From assembly GCA_022827195.1 (NCBI GenBank), contig JAJDTL010000051.1, forward strand, positions 62,001 through 126,000: a stretch of 64,000 bases of DNA. The letters are read 5' to 3'. Position 1 is the stretch's first letter. The number at the start of each line of letters is the position of its first letter. The notes beneath the pieces are model-generated. The model worked only from the letters and a program-made list of their open reading frames with translations. It was not told the origin of the DNA and did not search any database. The stretch comes from Caldilineaceae bacterium (GTDB lineage Bacteria > Chloroflexota > Anaerolineae > Caldilineales > Caldilineaceae). Position numbers and translations under genes: made by a program. Positions 43,714 through 63,035 of this stretch are shown one piece after another.

Positions 43714-44511
43714 ATGACAGAGATCAAAGTCGACCCGGCAGAGATCGAATTCTTCCAGCAGAACGGCTACATTCAATACCACGATTTCCTCTCAAAAGGC
43801 CAGATCGAACTGCTCCGCCAGGCGCTCGATCTTGCAGTCTCCACCCGCCGCGACCGCATCCGAGGCGCGGAAAAGGGCGGACGCCTCTCAGAAGAGTACG
43901 AGCGCGTCTTCAACCAGATGGTCAACCTGTGGACCGACTACCCGCAGGCCAGGGATATCGCCTTCGACCCCCGCTTGGGCCAGCACGCCCGCCAGCTGAG
44001 CCGCTGTCGCCACGTCCGCATCTACCACGACCACGCCATGATCAAGCCGCCCGGCCAGGTCAGCAAGCAGACCAACTGGCACCAGGACGCACCCTACTGG
44101 CCTATGGATCCTGTAGGCGCGCTCTCGGCCTGGATTGCGGTAGATGACGTAACCGTCGAAAACGGCTGCCTGCAATTCGTGCCCGGCTCGCACAAACACG
44201 GACGCCTCGACCCGATCAGCCTCGAGAGCGAGGACGACAGCGTGGTCGAAAGGCTCAGGACACGCGGAATCGCCGTGCCAGGGCCGGTCGCGATGCCGAT
44301 GCGGGCCGGCGGCGTGACCTTCCACCACGGCTGCACCTTCCACTACGCCGGCCCCAACCGCTCCGACAGGCCGCGGCGCGCCTTTGCCATCATCTACATC
44401 CCCGACTATACTCGCTTTACCGGCGGCAAGGACGCGGCCGGAGCCGCCGAAGAGATGATAATAGGCGGCCCCTGGAACCACGCCATCCACCCAATTGTCG
44501 CCGGGCACTGA
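43714..44511 (+). CDS. Phytanoyl-CoA dioxygenase (PhyH) family protein, copy 1
   Basis: A 265-residue Fe(II)/2-oxoglutarate dioxygenase. Motifs: EIEFFQQNGYIQYHDFLS at the N-terminus, the facial-triad HxD in TNWHQDAPYWPMD, AWIAVDDVTVENGCLQFVPG then SHKHG, and the distal His/Arg region FHHGCTFHYAGPNRSDRPRR. PhyH members hydroxylate many small molecules besides phytanoyl-CoA (ectoine, phosphonates, lipids), so the substrate is open. The TATAAT promoter is 45 bases upstream. A transaldolase-like gene follows 87 bases later. Confidence 0.9.
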   Translation: MTEIKVDPAEIEFFQQNGYIQYHDFLSKGQIELLRQALDLAVSTRRDRIRGAEKGGRLSEEYERVFNQMVNLWTDYPQARDIAFDPRLGQHARQLSRCRHVRIYHDHAMIKPPGQVSKQTNWHQDAPYWPMDPVGALSAWIAVDDVTVENGCLQFVPGSHKHGRLDPISLESEDDSVVERLRTRGIAVPGPVAMPMRAGGVTFHHGCTFHYAGPNRSDRPRRAFAIIYIPDYTRFTGGKDAAGAAEEMIIGGPWNHAIHPIVAGH

Positions 44512-45413: not shown

Positions 45414-45508
45414 AGCCGCAATCTGTTAGGACAACGAAATACCTGCTGCAAGGGCTGGAATGGCCCACCTACAATGGCGCGCCGATTGACCACACCAGGA
45501 GGGTGATC

Positions 45509-46534
45509 ATGGCTGACGTTAGCGCTGAAAGAGAAGGTCTGATGGACGGAATGCCGCGCGACGATCGCGGCTACTGGCAGCCGGAAGGGCTCAAACTACC
45601 AAATCCCGTCTTTGACTGGCCGCCCAACCCGCTGAAAATAGTGAAGTGGCTCTACAACTACCTCTTTCCCTGGAACATGATCTACATGCTCATCGCCGTG
45701 CTGACGGTCGTCTACCTGCAGCCGGAGATGTCCAAAATGACCACTTTCAGCGCCGACTGGATCGCCTATATCTTCGTTCGCAACCAGATCTTGCTGATCG
45801 TAGTCGTCAGCGCCTGGCACCTGTGGCTCTGGTCGCGCAAGTCGCAGGGCTTCCAGTACAAGTACACCCCGGATTGGCTGGCGAAGGGCAAGAAGCAGTT
45901 TCTCTTCGGCAACCAGCTCTACGACAACATCTTCTGGAGCTGTGTCAGCGGCGGCATCATCTGGACCGCCTACGAGGTCGTCACCCTCTGGGCCTATGCC
46001 AACGAGTACATTCCCTACCTGGACCCGGCCAGGCATCCGGTCTACTTTGTCCTGATGCTGTGCGGAATTCAGCTCTGGCGCCTGTTCCACTTCTACTGGG
46101 TGCACCGTCTGCTGCACTGGCCGCCGCTCTACAAGGCGGGCCACTACCTGCATCACCGCAACATCAATATCGGCCCCTGGTCGGGCCTCTCGATGCACCC
46201 GATTGAGCACATCCTTTACTTCAGTGGTGTTCTGATCCACTGGATCATCCCCTCGCACCCGATCCACGCCGTGTTCAACGGCCAGCACGCCGCCTTGACG
46301 CCGGCACAGGGGCACGCGGGCTTCGAGGCAATCGTCGTCAACGGCAAATCCATGCTGAGGGGGGCGTCCTACTTCCACCAGTTGCACCATCGCTACTTCG
46401 AATGCAACTACGGCGAAATGGATATACCCTTCGACGTCTGGTTCGGCACCAGCCACAACGGCTCGGCCGAAGACCACGAGGCGATGCGGGCGAAGCGGTT
46501 CGCCAGCCACAAAGTCAGCACCTCGGCCGCCTAA
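45509..46534 (+). CDS. Sterol desaturase/fatty acid hydroxylase family membrane protein, copy 1
   Basis: A 341-residue integral membrane di-iron protein. The histidine boxes are clear: HxxxH at His199/His203 (WVHRLLHW), HxxHH at His212/215/216 (GHYLHHRNIN), extra His at 230/234 (SMHPIEH), and HxxHH at His290/293/294 (FHQLHHRYFEC). Membrane segments appear near 52-70, 92-110, 145-165, 180-196 and 235-247. This superfamily hydroxylates or desaturates sterols, fatty acids or carotenoids. AGGAGG lies six bases before the ATG. It is about 81% identical to the next gene (64 differences counted over 341 residues, no gap). A terminator hairpin follows at 46585. The actual lipid substrate is unknown. 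Confidence 0.92.
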   Translation: MADVSAEREGLMDGMPRDDRGYWQPEGLKLPNPVFDWPPNPLKIVKWLYNYLFPWNMIYMLIAVLTVVYLQPEMSKMTTFSADWIAYIFVRNQILLIVVVSAWHLWLWSRKSQGFQYKYTPDWLAKGKKQFLFGNQLYDNIFWSCVSGGIIWTAYEVVTLWAYANEYIPYLDPARHPVYFVLMLCGIQLWRLFHFYWVHRLLHWPPLYKAGHYLHHRNINIGPWSGLSMHPIEHILYFSGVLIHWIIPSHPIHAVFNGQHAALTPAQGHAGFEAIVVNGKSMLRGASYFHQLHHRYFECNYGEMDIPFDVWFGTSHNGSAEDHEAMRAKRFASHKVSTSAA

Positions 46535-46612: not shown

Positions 46613-46792
46613 CGCGTGTCTTACATGCCTGCCGCTGCACCTGACGCGATGGGACTTGTCCGTCCGACGATGGGTGTGGCGCTGGCGAAAGCTGGCAGCA
46701 CGGTGAATCGGCTCCTTATGCGGGATATACTCTCAACACAGTGAATGCACTTCGAGGCTCAACGGCGGCAATCAAAGGTAGATTGCTCACGG

Positions 46793-46822
46793 TTGCGTGA
46801 CCGTACCTCTCTTGAGTACAAT
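46793..46822 (+). promoter_or_regulatory. Promoter of sterol-desaturase-family gene, copy 2
   Basis: TTGCGT (46793-46798), 18 bases, TACAAT (46817-46822), then AGCCGC. It has the same spacing and following bases as copy 1. A related leader (GCTGGAANGGCCCACC) runs between promoter and ATG in both copies. Confidence 0.75.
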
Positions 46823-46918
46823 AGCCGCGAAAATCGGAGAAAGAAGTACGCTTACCAATCGAGCTGGAAGGGCCCACCAGTGAATGGAGCCCACAATAGT
46901 CTCACCAGGAGATTGATC

Positions 46919-47944
46919 ATGGCAGACGTCAGCGCTGAAAGAGACGGTCTGATCGACGGGATGCCGCGCGACGAACGCGGGCACTGGCAGCCGGAAGGCG
47001 AGAAACTGCCTAGCCCGGTCTTTGACTGGCCGCCCAATCCTCGGAAGTTGGCCAAGTATCTCTTCAACTACCTCTTTCCCTGGAATCTCATCTACATGCT
47101 CATCGCCGTGCTGACCGTCACCTTCCTGCAGCCGGAGATGTCGCGCATGACGCGCTTCAGCCCCGACTGGATCCTCTACCTCTTCGCACGCAACCAGATC
47201 ATGCTGATCGCCATTGTCAGCGCCTGGCACCTGTGGCTGTGGGGGCGAAAGTCCCAGGGCTTCCAATTCAAATATACGGCCGAGTGGATGGCGAAGGGCA
47301 AGAAAAAGTTCCTGGGGAAGAATCAGCTGTTCGACAACATCTTCTGGAGTTGTGTCAGCGGCGGCACCATCTGGACCGCCTACGAGGTCGTCACGCTCTG
47401 GGCCTTCGCCAACGAGTACATCCCTTACCTGGACCCGAGGGAGCATCCGGTCTACTTCGTCCTTTTGCTCTGCGCGATCCAACTTTGGGGCCAGTTCCAC
47501 TTCTACTGGACCCACCGCCTCTTGCACTGGCCTCCCCTCTACAGGGCGGCGCACTTCCTGCACCACCGCAACATCAACCCCGGTCCCTGGTCCGGCCTGT
47601 CGATGCACCCGCTCGAGCACGTCATCTTCTTCAGCGGCGTGCTGATCCATTGGATCGTACCCTCGCATCCGATCCACGCTATCATGAACGGGCAGCTCAC
47701 CGCTTTCTCGCCTGCGCAGGCGCACGCCGGCTTTGAGTCAATTGTTGTCAACGGCAAATCCAAGCTGAGGGGGGCGTCCTACTTCCACCAGTTGCACCAC
47801 CGCTACTTCGAATGCAACTACGGGGGACTGGACATTCCGTTCGACGTCTGGTTCGGGACCAGCCACAACGGCTCGGCCGAGGCCCATGAAAAGATGCGGG
47901 CCAAGCGGTTCGCCAGCCACAAGGTCCGGACCTCAGCGGCCTAA
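46919..47944 (+). CDS. Sterol desaturase/fatty acid hydroxylase family membrane protein, copy 2
   Basis: A 341-residue paralog of the preceding gene, with every histidine box conserved (WTHRLLHW, AHFLHHRNIN, SMHPLEH, FHQLHHRYFEC). AGGAG lies seven bases before the ATG at 46919. The frame extends back to 46745 but that part only translates the leader. Most changes lie in membrane segments (for example residues 41-50, 81-90, 231-240), while the C-terminal catalytic third is nearly invariant, so both copies look functional. Independent promoters and terminators imply separate transcription. It may have a different chain-length or headgroup preference from copy 1; this is inference. Confidence 0.92.
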   Translation: MADVSAERDGLIDGMPRDERGHWQPEGEKLPSPVFDWPPNPRKLAKYLFNYLFPWNLIYMLIAVLTVTFLQPEMSRMTRFSPDWILYLFARNQIMLIAIVSAWHLWLWGRKSQGFQFKYTAEWMAKGKKKFLGKNQLFDNIFWSCVSGGTIWTAYEVVTLWAFANEYIPYLDPREHPVYFVLLLCAIQLWGQFHFYWTHRLLHWPPLYRAAHFLHHRNINPGPWSGLSMHPLEHVIFFSGVLIHWIVPSHPIHAIMNGQLTAFSPAQAHAGFESIVVNGKSKLRGASYFHQLHHRYFECNYGGLDIPFDVWFGTSHNGSAEAHEKMRAKRFASHKVRTSAA

Positions 47945-49312: not shown

Positions 49313-50416
49313 TCACCCGTTTATGCGCAGGTCCGTTCCTGAGTCAAATATGTGCAGCTTCGCGGCCGGCACTTCGACCTGGACCATCTGTCCCCGCTGA
49401 AACTGCCGCTCGGGATTCACCCGCGCCAGCAGCCGTTGCGAATCTCTCGTCACTTCCACAAAACTGTCCGAGCCGATCGGCTCAACCAGAGTGACCTCTG
49501 CAATAAACGCGCCCTCCTCGGGCACTGTTGCCCCGGGGTCCTGCAGTTTGGCGTCCTCGGCCCGCACACCTATGATGGCCTCCCCGCTCCAGGAACTCTC
49601 CAGCCGCGCCTCCTGCCGCGATTTCCAACACAATTCGAGCCCCGGGGAGGCAAAGGTGATGCCGTCTTCGTCCGCTTGCAGTTGGCCCTGGAACACGTTC
49701 ATGCCCGGCTTTCCAATGAAAGTGGCCACAAAGATCGAACGCGGGCGCCGGTAGATCTCCATGGGGGAGTCAAGCTGTTCAAGCCGCCCATCGCGCATGA
49801 CAGCAATTCGGTCTGAAATCGTCATCGCCTCTTCCTGATCGTGCGTCACGAAGACGCTCGTGGTCTGCAGATGCAGGTGCAGGCGTCTGATTTCCGTGCG
49901 CATGCGCACCCTAAGCGCCGCATCCAAGTTGGAGAGCGGTTCATCAAACAGGAAGATCTGCGGCTGTTTTGCCAGCGCCCGCGCCACCGCCACGCGCTGC
50001 TGCTGACCCCCCGAGAGCTGCGCCGTACGACGCTCCAGCAGATGGGCTATGTCCAGCATCTGGCTGACGTAGCCGACCATCCGCTCTATCTCGCTGCGGA
50101 CCACCCGCCGCAGCTTGAGGCTGAACGCGATATTGTCGAATACACTCATATGTGGGTAGAGAGCATAGTCCTGAAATACCATGCCGATGCCCCGCTCATT
50201 GGGCGGAAGGTCCGTTATGCGCGTACCGCCCAGATAGATGTCTCCCGCAGTCGGCTGTTCAAGGCCTGCGATCAGGTTCAGCGTCGTCGATTTCCCGCAG
50301 CCGGAAGGGCCCAGTAGCGTGACAAACTCGCCATCCGCCGCGGTCACATTGAGATTGTCCACCGCCAGAACCTGCCCAAAGGTCTTGCACAGGCCCCGCA
50401 ACTCAAGATCAGCCAT
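49313..50416 (-). CDS. ABC transporter ATP-binding protein, MalK/UgpC type
   Basis: A protein of about 367 residues. Walker A is GPSGCGKST, the signature LSGGQQQRVAVARAL, Walker B IFLFDEPLSNLD and the H-loop FVTHDQEEAMTIS. The C-terminal TOBE/OB regulatory domain (GKPGMNVFQGQL, IIGVRAEDAKL, VEPIGSDSFVEVT) identifies the CUT1 carbohydrate class, where one ATPase may serve more than one transporter. It begins ten bases after the fused permease stop, with GGAGAG ahead of the ATG. With the permease and binding protein it forms a complete importer. A GTG three bases earlier is an alternative start. Confidence 0.93.
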   Translation of the reverse strand: MADLELRGLCKTFGQVLAVDNLNVTAADGEFVTLLGPSGCGKSTTLNLIAGLEQPTAGDIYLGGTRITDLPPNERGIGMVFQDYALYPHMSVFDNIAFSLKLRRVVRSEIERMVGYVSQMLDIAHLLERRTAQLSGGQQQRVAVARALAKQPQIFLFDEPLSNLDAALRVRMRTEIRRLHLHLQTTSVFVTHDQEEAMTISDRIAVMRDGRLEQLDSPMEIYRRPRSIFVATFIGKPGMNVFQGQLQADEDGITFASPGLELCWKSRQEARLESSWSGEAIIGVRAEDAKLQDPGATVPEEGAFIAEVTLVEPIGSDSFVEVTRDSQRLLARVNPERQFQRGQMVQVEVPAAKLHIFDSGTDLRING

Positions 50417-50425
50417 CACACTCTC

Positions 50426-52351
50426 CTATCCCTTGACCGCCCCTTCGGTAAGCCCTCTGATAATCTGCCTGCTCAACAGGAATACGATGAGCAGGATGGG
50501 CAGGATCGCCATCACGCCCCCCGCGGCCAGCTTGTTGAGGGGCAGATCCCATAGGCCGCGGTATTCGGCAATTTTGACAATCAACGTCTTTGCCGAACGC
50601 GTCGTCAGCACCAGCGCGAACAGGAACTCGTTCCAGCTGACGATCAGGCAGAAAATTGCAGTCGCCGTAACGCCCGGTGCAGAAACCGGCATTATGATGC
50701 GAACAAGGGTCCCCAGGCGCGAGCAGCCGTCGACCATCGCAGCCGACTCCAGGGAACGCGGCATGTCTTCGAAAAAGTTGCGCAACATCCACAGAATATA
50801 CGGCAGGAAGAACGCCGTATAGACCAAAACAAGGGAAGGAAGCGTGTCGATAAGACCCAGCTGACGGACGACCAGGAAGAGGGGAATCAACAGGGTTACG
50901 GCCGGCACCATGCGCGTCGACACGGCCAAACCCATGAAAAAGTTTCGATAGGGCAGCTGCATGCGGGCCAGTGGATACGCGGCCAGCGATCCTACGGCTA
51001 CACACAGTGCCGTCGTTGTGATGGCGACCAGTAGACTGTTTCGAACTGTCAATACAAAGGAGGCGTCCTCCAATTGGACCCAGTATTGGTCCAGATTGAC
51101 CGAACGCAAGCCGATCTCCGGCGGAACCGACGTAACGTTGACCAACGGCTGAACACTGACGATCGCAATCCAGACAAAGGGCAGCAATGTCCACACGAGC
51201 ATGAAAATGATACCCGCCGCCAGCCCCAACCGCCGCAGCTGCCTTGTGACGTTGGGTGTTAGCAATTGCCACCGGCGGCGGACCAGACGCCCCGGCGATT
51301 GAGAAAGCTCAGCTACATCCGCCAGCGTCCAAGTCTGAGCCACTTCGAGAGACGCGGACCTGCGCGCAGACGGACCTGTGTCCTCCGCCGGCTGACGCTT
51401 GCGCTGCTCGCGCACGATGAGCCAGAAGATGCCGCCGGCGCTCAGCAAAATACACAAGAAGAGGAGCAGGCCGATTGCTGAGGCGTAGCCCATTTTCAGA
51501 CTCTCAAAAGCCTGCGTAAAGACCAGATAAGTCAGCACCGTCGTCTTGAGCCCCGGGCCGCCCTGGGTCAGAATGTATAGCGTGTCGAAAAGTTGGAGAG
51601 CCCAGATCGTTTCGACCAGTACTAGAATCAGGATCGTCTTTCGCAGCGCCGGCAAGGTAATGAAGCGCAGACACTGCATAGAATTTGCCCCGTCGACCTT
51701 CGCCGCCCGGTACTGCGAGGCCGGGATCGATTGCAGGGCGGCCAGCAGGAACAGCGCGGCAAAAGGCACTGCCCGCCACGTTTCCACCAGGATCACAATG
51801 TGTATCGAAATCAATGGGTTTCCCATCCAGGCAACATAGGAAGTGATCACCCCTACCGCCAGAAGGACCGCATTGAGAACGCCGTACTTGGCATTGAAGA
51901 TCAGCTGCCACATCAGGGCGCCAACGACGGGCGCGATCGCCCATGGCACGAGAATTAGGACGCGCAACAGCCCCCGCCCGAAGAATGCCTCGTTCAGCAG
52001 CAGAGCAAAGAAGAGCCCCAGCCCGACTGTGAGCACGACCCGAACGACCGCGACATAGAATGAGCGCCCCAGCGAAGCCCAAAAGAGATCATCGCTTAAC
52101 GCCTTGACAAAGTTGTCGGCGCCGACAAACGGCCGCGTCTGCTCCGCTCGGACGAGATTGATGCTCTGCAGGCTCATCACGCTCGAGTAAAGAATCGGCA
52201 GCACTACGAATACCACGAGCAGCAGAGCGCCCGGTGCAATCATAAGGAGCGCAAAACGGGTCGGACTCAGACGGTTTATGCGGCGCGAGAGGCCGGCAAT
52301 ACCTCTACCTGGTAAAGGAGAGGCGCTGCCGGGAGACGAGGCGCGAGTCAT
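50426..52351 (-). CDS. Fused carbohydrate ABC permease (MalF-like plus MalG-like in one chain)
   Basis: A 641-residue protein that contains two complete CUT1 permease halves. Residues 1-305 are MalF-like: LMIAPGALLLVVFVVLPILY and the first EAA loop (YRAAKVDGANSMQCLRFITL). A linker of about 60 residues (RKRQPAEDTGPSARRS to QSPGRLVRRRW) follows. Residues 366-641 are MalG-like: GIIFMLVWTLLPFVWIAIVS, the second EAA loop (ESAAMVDGCSRLGTLVRIIM) and the terminal GLTEGAVKG. MalF and MalG are normally separate genes. The frame is continuous with no stop in the linker, and both EAA loops are intact, so a working single-chain permease is likely. The gene lies between the binding protein and the ATPase; a terminator-like hairpin precedes it. 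Confidence 0.9.
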   Translation of the reverse strand: MTRASSPGSASPLPGRGIAGLSRRINRLSPTRFALLMIAPGALLLVVFVVLPILYSSVMSLQSINLVRAEQTRPFVGADNFVKALSDDLFWASLGRSFYVAVVRVVLTVGLGLFFALLLNEAFFGRGLLRVLILVPWAIAPVVGALMWQLIFNAKYGVLNAVLLAVGVITSYVAWMGNPLISIHIVILVETWRAVPFAALFLLAALQSIPASQYRAAKVDGANSMQCLRFITLPALRKTILILVLVETIWALQLFDTLYILTQGGPGLKTTVLTYLVFTQAFESLKMGYASAIGLLLFLCILLSAGGIFWLIVREQRKRQPAEDTGPSARRSASLEVAQTWTLADVAELSQSPGRLVRRRWQLLTPNVTRQLRRLGLAAGIIFMLVWTLLPFVWIAIVSVQPLVNVTSVPPEIGLRSVNLDQYWVQLEDASFVLTVRNSLLVAITTTALCVAVGSLAAYPLARMQLPYRNFFMGLAVSTRMVPAVTLLIPLFLVVRQLGLIDTLPSLVLVYTAFFLPYILWMLRNFFEDMPRSLESAAMVDGCSRLGTLVRIIMPVSAPGVTATAIFCLIVSWNEFLFALVLTTRSAKTLIVKIAEYRGLWDLPLNKLAAGGVMAILPILLIVFLLSRQIIRGLTEGAVKG

Positions 52352-52402: not shown

Positions 52403-53755
52403 TCACGCACTCTGCCAGAATTCGTCGAGAAGGGCCTGAGAATCAGCGGCAGACATTTCCAACGCTTCCTGGGGCGATATGTCGCCGTTCTTCATGTTCT
52501 GGATCTGCTCATCGAAGACCGCGGCAACGTCGAAGTACACCGGCGAACCGAAGCGCGAGGCCGGATAGTTGGCCTGCTCCGACGTGATCGCCGCCACAGG
52601 ATTCGTGGTCTGTACTTCCGGATCGGCCAGGACCGACATACGGACAGGCAGCTGCGTTGTGGTCAGACCCATCTCACGCTGAGCTTCTACGCTGGAGAAG
52701 TACTTCAAATATTCGAGCCCTGCATCCTTATTCTCGGAGAATCTATTGATTCCATAGCCAATGTTTGCGCCGCTGGAACCGCTCTGGAGGTTGATGCCGG
52801 GAACCAGACCCAGCTTGGTGCGCCCGACAATCTTGGACTTCTCCTCGTTCTCATTATAGAGACCATGGTAGCGGCCCGGGTTGACCTGCATGGCGCACAG
52901 ACTTTGGGCATACGAGATGTGCGCCTCTTCGTTGGTGCCAATGCCCCAGCCGGCAGGGTCCATCACCTCATAGGTCACCAGCGCATCGTAGACCGCCTGC
53001 ATCGCATCCAACCCTTCAGGGCTGTTAAATGCAACCGACTTGAAGTCAGGGCTGTACATCGTACCATTCGCCCCATTCAGGAAGATGGCATAGAAGACGA
53101 ATACGCCATTGGAGCTCTGCAGCGGCCAGAGCCAGGTGTAGCGGTCGGTCTGCCCGTCGCCCGTCGTGTCCTTGTTGAGCGCCGGCGCCATCTCAAACAC
53201 CTCCTGCCAGCTTTCGGGCGGGCTCTCGGGGTCGAATCCGGCCTCTTCAAAAATGTCCTTATTGTAGAAGCCGACGTACACGAGCACACTGAAGGGGACA
53301 ACCCGCAGGCTTCCACCGACCGTAGCGTCCTGGACAACCGGTACTGGGATGTCATCCAGCACCGCCTGCTCGATCTTGTCGTTCAGCGGGTCGTATAGGC
53401 TCGCCCCGAAGAGAGCCGTGAGACCATCCCAGCTGTAGAGGACGTCGAACGAGGAGTCCTGGCCTGCCAGAATTGTGGCGTACTTGGCCTGCAGGTCGGA
53501 GAACGGAATCTCGTTCCACTCGCCCTCGATTCCGGTCGCCTCCTTGAAGGCCGGCAACATGCCCTTGGCTTCCGGCGGCGACGGCTGCGACAGTATCGTG
53601 ATCTTCTGCATCATCTCTTCGGCTGGAGCGGCCTCTTCGCCGTCCCCCTGGGGCGCAGTGGCTACCGGCACACAGGCGGCTAGGAAAGAACCGCCGGCAC
53701 CCATTCCTGCAATTTTCAGAAACTGACGGCGAGAAACACGATTTGACCCAAGCAT
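52403..53755 (-). CDS. ABC transporter extracellular solute-binding protein, family 1 (Tat lipoprotein)
   Basis: About 450 residues. N-terminus: SNRVSRRQFLKIAGMGAGGS holds the twin-arginine motif (SRRQFLK), followed by a hydrophobic stretch and a lipobox Cys (FLAACVPVA near residue 27). The mature part is SBP_bac_1-like: ITILSQPSPPEAKGMLPAFK, DVLYSWDGLTALFGASLYDP, GGSLRVVPFSVLVYVGFYNK, and a late GYGINRFSENKDAGLEYLKY. This is the carbohydrate-binding subunit for the fused permease and MalK-type ATPase. The ATG at 53755 has GAGGAGG upstream. Ligand unknown. Confidence 0.93.
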   Translation of the reverse strand: MLGSNRVSRRQFLKIAGMGAGGSFLAACVPVATAPQGDGEEAAPAEEMMQKITILSQPSPPEAKGMLPAFKEATGIEGEWNEIPFSDLQAKYATILAGQDSSFDVLYSWDGLTALFGASLYDPLNDKIEQAVLDDIPVPVVQDATVGGSLRVVPFSVLVYVGFYNKDIFEEAGFDPESPPESWQEVFEMAPALNKDTTGDGQTDRYTWLWPLQSSNGVFVFYAIFLNGANGTMYSPDFKSVAFNSPEGLDAMQAVYDALVTYEVMDPAGWGIGTNEEAHISYAQSLCAMQVNPGRYHGLYNENEEKSKIVGRTKLGLVPGINLQSGSSGANIGYGINRFSENKDAGLEYLKYFSSVEAQREMGLTTTQLPVRMSVLADPEVQTTNPVAAITSEQANYPASRFGSPVYFDVAAVFDEQIQNMKNGDISPQEALEMSAADSQALLDEFWQSA

Positions 53756-53916
53756 TGTCTTCCTCCTCATAGCTTTTGGCGACATCGTTCCCGATTACAG
53801 CACTGCTACCCTCCAACCTGGCCCGATCCGTACCTAGCCCTGCTTTCTGCTCGTCAGGCGATCACCCCCTCTCTCCTCGCGGCGCGTCCCCCGCTCTCTG
53901 CATCAATGTTTTACGT

Positions 53917-55008
53917 TCAGGCATCCAATTTGAACAGGCGCGCGGCGTTCCCACCAAAAAAGAGCGCTTTGTCCTGCCCCGACATGAAATCTGCATGAAG
54001 ACGTACGTAGTCCATCGACTGACGGTAAGTCACGTTGCGTTCTGCCGCGGGCATATCCGAGCCCCACAACAGCTTTTCCGGTCCGAGTTCATCGTAAAGG
54101 AGCTTCAAAATCTCCTGTGCCCAGGGAAACGGATAGGCCGTATCTGGCGCCATCAGATGCAGCATCACCTCCAGCGAGATGTTGGGATTCTTTAGGCAGG
54201 TCAATACTTCGGCTGGGATGTCAAACCGCTCTGACCTTGGCCGAATGGCGATCGTCTCAAGACCGTGCGTGAATACACAGGGAATGTCCGCATGCGCCCT
54301 GGCCCAGCGGTCGAGCCGCCGTACCTGCTCCATGTAACCGCCGAATCGATCTCGATGGCTGGTGTAGAGATACCAGAATACCGGAATCTGCAGTCGGCGA
54401 ACCGTCTCCCACAGAGGTTCAAACTTCGCGTCATCCAGATTGTCGACAAATCCGGAGAAGGCGAACGCTTCGACCATGAAGTAAAGACCTTTCAAGCCCA
54501 GCGTCGTGACGGCGTGTTCCAGCCGCTCCAACTGCTCCTCCCGGTCCGCCTCCCACTCACGGATCTGCGCCAGCGGCAGATACCTGTCCGGATAACGCTC
54601 CATCACCTCACTCAAGTACTCGTTGAGACTGCCGTAGACATGGTCGTGCTGCAGCACCGCCTTGTCCACCCCCAGGTAGTCCATATTCGTGACCATGAGT
54701 TCGGGCGGCGCAGTCATGTCTCGAAACCAGCAAGGATACCATTGCAGGTAGTAGTCCTCACCACCCACGGTGCATTCCAGCTGTCCATACTGGCCGATAC
54801 GCATGTTGACGTCCGGCATGTCGACAATCGCGTCGCCGCTTGGCATCAGCAGACCCGGTTCCGCACGGCTACCATCCCGCCGCCGTCGCCACCCCTGGAC
54901 ATGAAACTGCACGTGATGCTGGATGATCTGAAGTTGCGTCTCGGCGGTCTGGTCGCCCGAATCCGTTCCGAAACGTGGAAAAGCATGGGCATGGGCATCG
55001 ATGATCAC
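53917..55008 (-). CDS. Amidohydrolase (metal-dependent, TIM barrel) family protein
   Basis: About 363 residues from a GTG at 55008, chosen because GGAGA lies nine bases upstream and the metal site begins there: VIIDAHAHAFPRFG (HxH). Further features are VDKAVLQHDHVYGSLNEYLS, PDRYLPLAQIREWEADREEQ, LGLKGLYFMVEAFAFSG, IPVFWYLYTSHR, IPCVFTHGLET and KLLWGSDMPAAERN (the Asp ligand). The pattern is that of amidohydrolase-2 enzymes (decarboxylases or lactone hydrolases). It is first in the ABC importer operon, so it probably acts on the imported compound or its product. A near-consensus promoter lies 100 bases upstream. Confidence 0.88.
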   Translation of the reverse strand: MIIDAHAHAFPRFGTDSGDQTAETQLQIIQHHVQFHVQGWRRRRDGSRAEPGLLMPSGDAIVDMPDVNMRIGQYGQLECTVGGEDYYLQWYPCWFRDMTAPPELMVTNMDYLGVDKAVLQHDHVYGSLNEYLSEVMERYPDRYLPLAQIREWEADREEQLERLEHAVTTLGLKGLYFMVEAFAFSGFVDNLDDAKFEPLWETVRRLQIPVFWYLYTSHRDRFGGYMEQVRRLDRWARAHADIPCVFTHGLETIAIRPRSERFDIPAEVLTCLKNPNISLEVMLHLMAPDTAYPFPWAQEILKLLYDELGPEKLLWGSDMPAAERNVTYRQSMDYVRLHADFMSGQDKALFFGGNAARLFKLDA

Positions 55009-55107
55009 GAGGGCCTTGTCTCCAATCTGCCCTGGGCCGTCTGAGGAACCTGGCTCGGCCGGAAGGCACAATGTGATTCTGAGGAAGAGGAAGTGCAGAA
55101 TAGTGAC

Positions 55108-59025: not shown

Positions 59026-59841
59026 ATGCGGACTGATGAAGCCCGGCTGACGCGTCAGCACTATGAGCAGGACGGATTCTACATCTGCACGGAACCGCTG
59101 ATCCCGCTAGACCTGGTTGAGAGGGCGGTCTCAGGCATGGACGCTGTCCGCGCCGGGAACTACGATACGGGGATACCCCCGCGGCCCTCGCGCTGGAATC
59201 CGGGCGACGACCTTAATGCGCTCTGCAAGATCGAGAAACCGCAGATCGCCAATCGGGCTATCATGGAGCTGGTTTCGCATCCGGCCCTGGGCGAAAAAGC
59301 GGCACAGGTTTCCGGCGCTCGCGCCGTCCAGGTCTGGTGGGTGCAGCTCCTCTACAAGCCGCCTTCGGTACCCGGCCAGTTGCCGCGCACCAACATCGGC
59401 TGGCACCAGGACTACAACTACTGGGGCGCTTGGGAGGAGGACAGCGAACTGTTCACGGCCTGGGTCGCGCTCAGCGACGTCTCACCTGAAGCCGGGCCGA
59501 TGAACTTTGTCGCCGGCTCCCACCGCTGGGGACTGTCGACGGAGAGTGACTTCCACTCCCAGGAGTACGCGTCCCTGCGCGAGACCATCCGCAGTGCACA
59601 TGGCCAGGAATGGCGCGAAGTGCCCGCCATACTGCCGCCGGGCTCAGCCAGCTTCCACCAGAAGCTCACCTTCCACGGCAGCGGACCCAACCTTTCCTCT
59701 CAGCCGCGCCGCAGCTTTGCGGTGCACATGCGCACAGAAAACTCACGCCCAAAGGGCGATCTTCGCCAGGGCCTGACAGCATTCATCGACGACCCGGCCT
59801 TCTGCCCCATCGTCTTCGGTGATGCCGGCGCGCTACTGTGA
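59026..59841 (+). CDS. Phytanoyl-CoA dioxygenase (PhyH) family protein, copy 2
   Basis: A 271-residue Fe(II)/2-oxoglutarate dioxygenase. Motifs: LTRQHYEQDGFYICTEPLIP, HxD in IGWHQDYNYWGAW, AWVALSDVSPEAGPMNFVAG then SHRWG, and FHQKLTFHGSGPNLSSQPRR (distal His and Arg). AGGAGG lies eight bases before the ATG. It shares the fold but not close sequence with the other two PhyH proteins here, so their substrates probably differ. It stands 70 bases upstream of a HemL-like aminotransferase. Confidence 0.9.
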   Translation: MRTDEARLTRQHYEQDGFYICTEPLIPLDLVERAVSGMDAVRAGNYDTGIPPRPSRWNPGDDLNALCKIEKPQIANRAIMELVSHPALGEKAAQVSGARAVQVWWVQLLYKPPSVPGQLPRTNIGWHQDYNYWGAWEEDSELFTAWVALSDVSPEAGPMNFVAGSHRWGLSTESDFHSQEYASLRETIRSAHGQEWREVPAILPPGSASFHQKLTFHGSGPNLSSQPRRSFAVHMRTENSRPKGDLRQGLTAFIDDPAFCPIVFGDAGALL

Positions 59842-61123: not shown

Positions 61124-61216
61124 AGCTCGCCGTTCATACCGGACAGGATGCGATGGTGCTGTGGCGCCGGCCAATGAGTATGCTCTGCACAGACTTTGCA
61201 GGGAGATGACCAATTC

Positions 61217-62134
61217 ATGACCCAAGCCCAGGCGAACAGTAGAATCGAAGTACCCACGGTACTGGACCAGGAGCAGGTCGACTTCTTCGTCGACAACGGC
61301 TACCTGGCTGTGCCCTCTCTTCTGAAAGCAGATGAATTGGAGGAGCTGAAACAGGACATCGTCAAGGTGGCGCGCGGCGGCTACCCGAATGAGACGATAG
61401 AGCCAGTGCCCGTGGAGTTCAGCGATGATGAGGTACTCACCAAGATTCTCGCCATCCACCAGCCCCACTACGTGAGTCCGGTGATGGAAAGCTACTGCCG
61501 CCACCCCCTGATCAGCGGGGTCCTCAGCCAGATCGCGGGCGCACACCTGGCCCACTGGTCCGGAAACGTCAAATGTATGCAGTCAATGCTTTTCATCAAG
61601 CCTCCAGGGTATCCGGGCCAGTCTTGGCACCAGGATGAGAACTACATCCCCACCCGCGACTGGTCGCTGATCGGGGCCTGGATCGCGATCGACGACGCCC
61701 ATGTCGAGAACGGCTGCATGTGGGTGATTCCAGGGTCGCAACGCGCCGGCTACCTCTACCCGACGCGCAAACACGGCAACCCCGATGAGTTCGACACGCA
61801 CGACGACATGGCGACCGGCTTTGATGAATCGCCCCAAATCCCGGTCGAGGTCAAGGCTGGCAGCGTCGTCTTCTTCAACGGCTATCTGCTGCACCAGTCA
61901 ATGCGAAATCGCACAAAGGACAGCTACCGCCGCGTACTGGTCAGCCACTACCTGAGCAGCGAGTCCCTCCTTACCTGGGTCTCGTCGACCGACAATCAAT
62001 CGGTTGCGCGCGTCGACGTCCGCCGCGTCTTTCCGGTAGCCGGCGTAGATCCCTACGCCTGGAAGGGCTATGAATCGCAACCGCCGGAGGAGACCAAACT
62101 CTATATCCGCAAGGCGAGACTTGACGAAGACTGA
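61217..62134 (+). CDS. Phytanoyl-CoA dioxygenase (PhyH) family protein, copy 3
   Basis: About 305 residues. Motifs: LDQEQVDFFVDNGYLAVPSL, FIKPPGYPGQSWHQDENYIP (HxD), AWIAIDDAHVENGCMWVIPG then SQRAGY and FFNGYLLHQSMRNRTKDSYR (distal His and Arg). The ATG at 61217 is preferred; GGGAG lies a little further upstream than usual. It resembles the PhyH type paired with aminotransferases and sugar enzymes in other environmental genomes. Its gene follows the aminotransferase by about 90 bases on the same strand. Confidence 0.9.
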   Translation: MTQAQANSRIEVPTVLDQEQVDFFVDNGYLAVPSLLKADELEELKQDIVKVARGGYPNETIEPVPVEFSDDEVLTKILAIHQPHYVSPVMESYCRHPLISGVLSQIAGAHLAHWSGNVKCMQSMLFIKPPGYPGQSWHQDENYIPTRDWSLIGAWIAIDDAHVENGCMWVIPGSQRAGYLYPTRKHGNPDEFDTHDDMATGFDESPQIPVEVKAGSVVFFNGYLLHQSMRNRTKDSYRRVLVSHYLSSESLLTWVSSTDNQSVARVDVRRVFPVAGVDPYAWKGYESQPPEETKLYIRKARLDED

Positions 62135-62369: not shown

Positions 62370-63035
62370 ATGAGTACGGACAGAACACGCACTCTTGTCT
62401 TCTGTGACGACAGCGCGCACCCTGCTTCCCTTACGCGGGACGGACTTGCGGCCCTGGGTGAGACCGGGCTCGCACTTGAATGGGTGGAAGACCCGGCAGC
62501 CTGGCGCATCGACAGCCTGGACCGCTATCCGCTGGTTATCTTTTCGAAGGCCAACAACCGTTCGCAGGCGGAACATGAGCCCTGGGCGGACGAAGATACC
62601 GGCCGGGCCTTCGCCGACCATGTGGCCGCGGGAAACGGCATCCTTATTCTGCATTCCGGTACGGCCCTTTACGGCAACGCTCCCTCACTGTGTAAATTGA
62701 TGGGCGGCGTCTTCACCGGCCATCCACCGCAGTGCCCCGTCATGGTTGATCCCCTTGCCGGGCATCCTTTGACCGCGGGCAGCGCAACCTTCACCTTGAA
62801 GGACGAACATTACATGATGGAGATGAACGACCCGGACGTCGATCTCTTCCTCTACACCGAATCCAAGCATGGACGGCAACCTGCCGGATGGACACGCAGC
62901 CAAGGCAAGGGACGCGTCGGCGTCCTGACGCCAGGACACAACCCCGAAGTATGGCGCCACCCTTCGTTCCAGGCTCTGCTGCGCAACTGCATCGGCTGGT
63001 GCAACCCTAACGACAACCCAGGAGAACGACGATGA
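62370..63035 (+). CDS. ThuA-like domain protein (trehalose-utilisation family)
   Basis: A 221-residue protein of the class I glutamine-amidotransferase-like fold. Motifs: TLVFCDDSAHPASLTRDGLA, LVIFSKANNRS, GRAFADHVAAGNGILILHSG, YGNAPSLCKLMGGVFTGHPP and GRVGVLTPGHNPEVWRHPSF, followed by LLRNCIGWC. The catalytic Cys of amidotransferases is absent, as in ThuA proteins, which may bind or oxidise keto-sugars. It overlaps the next aldo/keto reductase gene by four bases (ATGA), so the two are co-translated. Role likely in the same sugar-derivative pathway. Confidence 0.88.
   Translation: MSTDRTRTLVFCDDSAHPASLTRDGLAALGETGLALEWVEDPAAWRIDSLDRYPLVIFSKANNRSQAEHEPWADEDTGRAFADHVAAGNGILILHSGTALYGNAPSLCKLMGGVFTGHPPQCPVMVDPLAGHPLTAGSATFTLKDEHYMMEMNDPDVDLFLYTESKHGRQPAGWTRSQGKGRVGVLTPGHNPEVWRHPSFQALLRNCIGWCNPNDNPGERR

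Follow-up and report, generated by a model that had tools for sequence, protein, structure and literature searches.

In a 64,000-nucleotide stretch of DNA from a Caldilineaceae bacterium (contig JAJDTL010000051.1, positions 62,001 to 126,000; referred to here as the window), a single reading frame encodes two complete type-I ATP-binding cassette (ABC) importer permease halves. The frame lies on the reverse strand and runs from ATG to stop over 641 amino acids (aa) with zero internal stops. We hold with high confidence that it belongs to a carbohydrate uptake type 1 (CUT1) ABC importer in which one polypeptide contains both of the two unlike permease subunits; a single frame would fix the halves at 1:1 stoichiometry. 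The permease is made up as follows.

50426..52351, reverse strand: fused CUT1 permease, SugA/MalF-type half, linker and SugB/MalG-type half, 641 aa
51398..52270, reverse strand: permease half 1, residues 28-318 (closest to SugA, 7cad_A, E 4.4e-39)
51644..51712, reverse strand: coupling (EAA) loop in half 1, residues 214-236
51254..51397, reverse strand: linker, residues 319-366, mostly predicted disordered, fast-evolving, gap-free in the 16 closest relatives
50429..51253, reverse strand: permease half 2, residues 367-641 (closest to SugB, 8ja7_B, E 1.5e-43)
50684..50752, reverse strand: coupling (EAA) loop in half 2, residues 534-556

Pfam recognises BPD_transp_1 in two stretches of the protein. 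NCBIfam models of the MalF/UgpA/GlcT kind match inside residues 33-303 and those of the MalG/UgpE/GlcU kind inside residues 381-641, all below their equivalog cut-offs. The motifs YRAAKVDGAN (residues 214-223) and LESAAMVDGCS (residues 534-544) mark the EAA or coupling loops; D220, G221, D541 and G542 are invariant in an alignment of 30 fused proteins. Frame, domain matches and motifs agree with an earlier reading made by a model from the DNA letters (the sequence-only reading), which had proposed an unbroken 641-codon frame with two complete halves, each with its own EAA loop. The polar linker that it described is also present, although it is about 48 residues long (319-366) and not 60; in the predicted structure the predicted local distance difference test score (pLDDT) is below 50 at residues 322-362. 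Its assignment of the protein as a MalF-MalG-type fusion in a CUT1 importer agrees with the sequence affinity of the halves and can be refined, the nearest solved relatives being SugA and SugB.

A recent review (PMC11212667) gives CUT1 importers two separate permease polypeptides, in line with the premise that the subunits are normally separate genes. Other importer families, for example iron importers, do have single-chain permeases; it is the CUT1 form that seems to be new. A fused CUT1 permease pair was not found in the accessible literature on permease fusions, FbpBC and Caldilineaceae, a coverage that mostly excludes subscription journals; in the "fused permease" papers examined, the term denotes permease-ATPase, permease-binding-protein or TRAP fusions. 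Beyond the bare finding, sequence comparison shows a fusion that is conserved, has recurred and stands apart from the PhnU2/FbpB kind.

Junction conservation and family placement

A search of about 5.8 billion proteins, in which 7,999 candidates were scored, gave 207 relatives, and 78 of the best 120 of these match both halves in non-overlapping stretches. The 16 closest are 87-99% identical over the aligned part and every one spans the junction in frame; seven are 641 aa long, six are 605 aa and start 36 residues later, and the remaining three are 513, 539 and 416 aa. Identity in the halves is 89-100% and the linker has zero gaps in all 16. Two of them, P0014 and P0016, are partial copies at 99% identity with linkers 98% identical; they carry no stated source and are perhaps not independent of this assembly; for the 14 that clearly are, identity is 89-96% in the halves and 38-71% in the linker. 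Drift in sequence at constant length and frame points to a translated tether rather than an assembly error. Homologues thus show that the fusion is genuine, that many relatives retain it and that it is not peculiar to this assembly; a search for close relatives with a split gene pair at this place turned up none among these 16.

It is extremely unlikely that a missed stop or an indel in this assembly joined two adjacent genes. The same genome does hold 11 other matches with both halves in one frame and only one or two stops between them, and a single error could join such a pair; the in-frame, gap-free junction of the 16 closest relatives, some of them on contigs of more than 5 Mb, and the further fused relatives at 35-42% identity argue against it, and we rejected assembly error on this conservation. 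The fusion could also exist at gene level only, the linker being cleaved, or a start inside it giving a free half 2, so that the working complex would be an ordinary two-subunit permease. A disordered and poorly conserved linker could be cut, and GTG or TTG codons occur in or near it at residues 337, 363 and 375. By eye, however, no convincing ribosome-binding sequence precedes these codons, and residue 384, the sole ATG codon in the span 301-400, falls within a predicted transmembrane helix. The fixed length of the linker in the 16 closest relatives, despite its drift, also speaks against cleavage or an internal start, and we regard this alternative as improbable.

Membership of the known single-chain FbpB/ThiP/PhnU2 group, rather than CUT1, is in our view very unlikely. 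The protein has both halves in one chain with the matching fold, and the best structural match of the predicted whole chain is single-chain FbpB (485 residues, 3.1 Å). There is a weak match to the PhnU2 model (TIGR03262; 66.8 bits, cut-off 593.25), and L133, a PhnU2-like protein of the same genome, aligns in register (405 columns, 23% identity, E 2e-5). GlcU, UgpA and SugA/SugB, however, score much higher by sequence, and the ThiP model gives 25.9 bits (cut-off 395.1), so that the protein stands far under both curated cut-offs. In the comparison with L133 the PhnU2 model gave 174.2 bits for L133 and 51.1 for the window protein, and the best-scoring piece of the alignment pairs half 2 of the window protein with half 1 of L133. 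In the tree, where the PhnU2-like kind has two rows and FbpB and ThiP proteins were left out, L131 and L133, chosen as outgroup, are separated from all other rows by a very long branch. The group was therefore rejected on sequence and tree, despite the in-register alignment. The CUT1 assignment is further consistent with BPD_transp_1-type halves closest to sugar permeases, a MalK-type ATPase with a C-terminal TOBE/OB domain and a family-1 solute-binding protein beside the permease. Sequence places the halves with SugA and SugB, hence in CUT1 and apart from FbpB/ThiP/PhnU2. Because the protein is one polypeptide, not the two separate integral membrane polypeptides of the wording in PMC11212667, yet has its halves among CUT1 rows of the tree, we class it as a CUT1 variant and not a standard member.

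L133 itself (contig C29), a single-chain permease of 568 aa, comes nearest to the PhnU2 model, though below the cut-off; this genome thus holds two kinds of single-chain permease.

Occurrence and origins of fused permeases

The window's genome (5.2 Mb, 54 contigs) has 117 matches to the fused permease, 12 of which span both halves, the window's alone being stop-free. We inspected 21 further loci (L002-L022), namely seven spanning matches and 14 with a half in a reported frame of at least 516 aa, with four spanning matches (one or two stops each) and the remaining matches outside the set; the halves lie in separate open reading frames (ORFs) in 21/21. For the loci inspected, several fusions in one genome were accordingly rejected, the long frames reported for other pairs being read-through counts.

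With the best 20 candidates of each scored, the permease has no match at E 1e-150 in any of 60 relatives, the 16 congeners included, and 0/16 congeners have a match to the binding protein at 1e-60; the importer therefore looks accessory. At 1e-80, 11 of 45 other family genomes gave 12 matches. Split permease pairs at 33-35% identity occur in five congeners; the single pair of these that was included in the tree, L117, falls in another part of it. Four fused family matches (31-32% identity) belong to other genera; L118-L120 fall in clade III (below) and L127 was left out of the tree. With three top candidates scored per genome, 20 of 400 phylum genomes, among them the window's, had matches at 1e-75, and 8 of the 25 matches listed are stop-free, in six genomes. 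A scan of named genomes found both halves in one frame in seven of its best 80 loci: Chloroflexi (2), Proteobacteria, Mycobacterium, Verrucomicrobia and Devosia (2). Sponge Caldilineae are reported to possess several sugar ABC importers (PMC6306507), and we would merely guess that the window's genome is that of a sponge symbiont.

A FastTree phylogeny of 127 rows (160 before removal of near-copies) needs eight changes between fused and split states. IQ-TREE (quick search, mixture model), run on 63 hand-picked rows (51 drawn from those 127, with 12 added), needs six for the fused label; the rows came from searches favouring fused proteins. Three fused clades are starred in this tree: I, with the window protein; II, with L024, L025, L124 and L125; and III, with L038, L043, L048, L051 and L118-L122. 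The lone fused rows P0063, P0065, P0069 and P0073 are placed elsewhere; with these and three long split rows dropped, 56 rows need three changes. On this set the approximately unbiased test rejects a tree that unites all 28 fused rows (p-AU 1.7e-6) but not one that unites clades I and II (p-AU 0.179). The fused state must thus have arisen more than once, or have been lost again by fission; the topology tests do not separate the two. As the split state predominates, we infer fusion as the direction, in which case two fusions would be the minimum and the best tree would have three. The spacing between halves has a median of 138 nt in 93 fused proteins versus 51.5 nt in 104 split pairs; the way the split set was gathered biases it to same-frame pairs, and we base no conclusion on the difference.

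The gene setting was compared across 16 fused loci, the window's among them, using flanks of 1.5 to 8 kb. All 16 have a binding-protein gene on the same strand within 1.8 kb, downstream of the permease in L023 and L126. A MalK-type gene is near in eight of the 16: all seven loci of clades I and II and one of nine in clade III, where it is on the opposite strand. These flanks show no further permease ORF in 15 of the 16 loci; the exception, L122, has a partial one at the edge. We favour, with moderate confidence, the view that single-chain CUT1 importers are a recurrent, unrecognised class, in which MalF-like and MalG-like genes that had already diverged became fused on two or more occasions, probably at least three, in Chloroflexota and other bacteria and reached the single-chain design of FbpB, and of which one clade, mostly without a neighbouring ATPase gene, probably uses a shared MalK.

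We also note a different CUT1-related fusion: P0072, P0080, P0091, P0093, P0113, P0115, P0118 and P0120 (660-861 aa) have solute-binding-protein domains and a permease domain per chain.

Neighbouring genes and proposed mechanism

The genes next to the permease are listed below.

49313..50419, reverse strand: ATPase of the MalK/UgpC type, TOBE domain at its C-terminus, separated by 6 bp from the permease stop upstream of it
52403..53785, reverse strand: family-1 extracellular solute-binding protein (SBP_bac_1, 88.5 bits), 51 bp upstream of the permease start
53917..55071, reverse strand: Amidohydro_2 enzyme, upstream, possibly co-transcribed, start codon uncertain

The binding-protein, permease and ATPase genes all lie on one strand and, by sequence, complete an importer; the sequence-only reading had likewise expected binding protein and ATPase to stay separate. 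In the ATPase Pfam finds ABC_tran and TOBE_2, with OB_MalK at 22.9 bits (cut-off 27); the NCBIfam UgpC model gives 419.5 bits (cut-off 432) and the MalK model 349.9 (cut-off 568). The divergently transcribed neighbours encode an AXE1-like esterase and a GlcNAc-2-epimerase-family enzyme. Enzymes beside fused permeases vary between loci (enolase superfamily, GFO/IDH/MocA, amidohydrolases, ADH), and we therefore assigned no substrate from them. The resemblance of the binding protein is the one pointer to transport of a CUT1-type substrate (oligosaccharide, glycerol phosphate or similar), and tentatively the substrate is probably a sugar or short oligosaccharide.

The three genes may share one transcript. 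Within the chain, the six-helix halves are predicted to pack together as SugA-SugB or MalF-MalG do between chains, and a cytoplasmic linker would run from the C-terminal end of half 1 to the N-terminal end of half 2 with the topology unchanged. Each EAA loop would dock a single copy of the neighbouring gene's MalK-type ATPase, giving two per chain, the binding protein would deliver the substrate, and import would follow the ordinary alternating-access cycle of type-I importers. Together with the possibly cleavable linker, certain observations weigh against this single-chain importer. The structure model comprises one chain, without ATPase or membrane, and by eye the permease gene's own start has no clear ribosome-binding sequence. 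The binding protein matches 1eu8 best (trehalose/maltose-binding, E 1e-25) and then many other sugar-binding proteins. Eight of the nine clade III loci (L038, L043, L051, L118-L122) have no MalK-type gene within the flanks examined; with a binding protein present, this suggests a shared ATPase elsewhere.

Other genes in the window were noted in passing: a ThuA (trehalose utilisation) family gene at 62370-63035 (forward strand), about 4 kb past the divergent esterase and epimerase genes; FA_hydroxylase family neighbours at 45503-46534 and 46745-47944 (forward), paralogue-like by eye; and three phytanoyl-CoA dioxygenase family genes at 43714-44511, 59026-59841 and 61196-62134 (forward).

Comparison with known importers

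In a natural single-chain form the order of two unlike halves and their 1:1 pairing would be set by the chain itself, which offers a ready-made construct for structural and single-molecule studies of asymmetric importers. It also opens the question of why a CUT1-rich genome links one pair and keeps the other inspected pairs apart. Where fused proteins of this kind carry a name, it is just permease subunit or permease protein, and a reader of gene lists might conclude that the second permease is missing.

ThiP and PhnU2 (TIGR01253 and TIGR03262, model lengths 519 and 546) have two permease halves per chain, as here. The permease of the FbpB-type ferric importer (Thermus FbpBC, 9j4r) belongs to a different sequence family, and FutB is described as an internal duplication, whereas the window permease joins two already different CUT1 halves. 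It shares the type-I fold and half order with MalF-MalG of the E. coli maltose importer, which are separate genes; MalF has two extra N-terminal helices and an insertion with no counterpart here. The closest parallel in sequence, with the same fold, is SugA-SugB of the LpqY-SugABC trehalose importer (CUT1; 7cad, 8ja7), half 1 matching SugA and half 2 SugB, but SugA and SugB are separate chains and the window permease is one.
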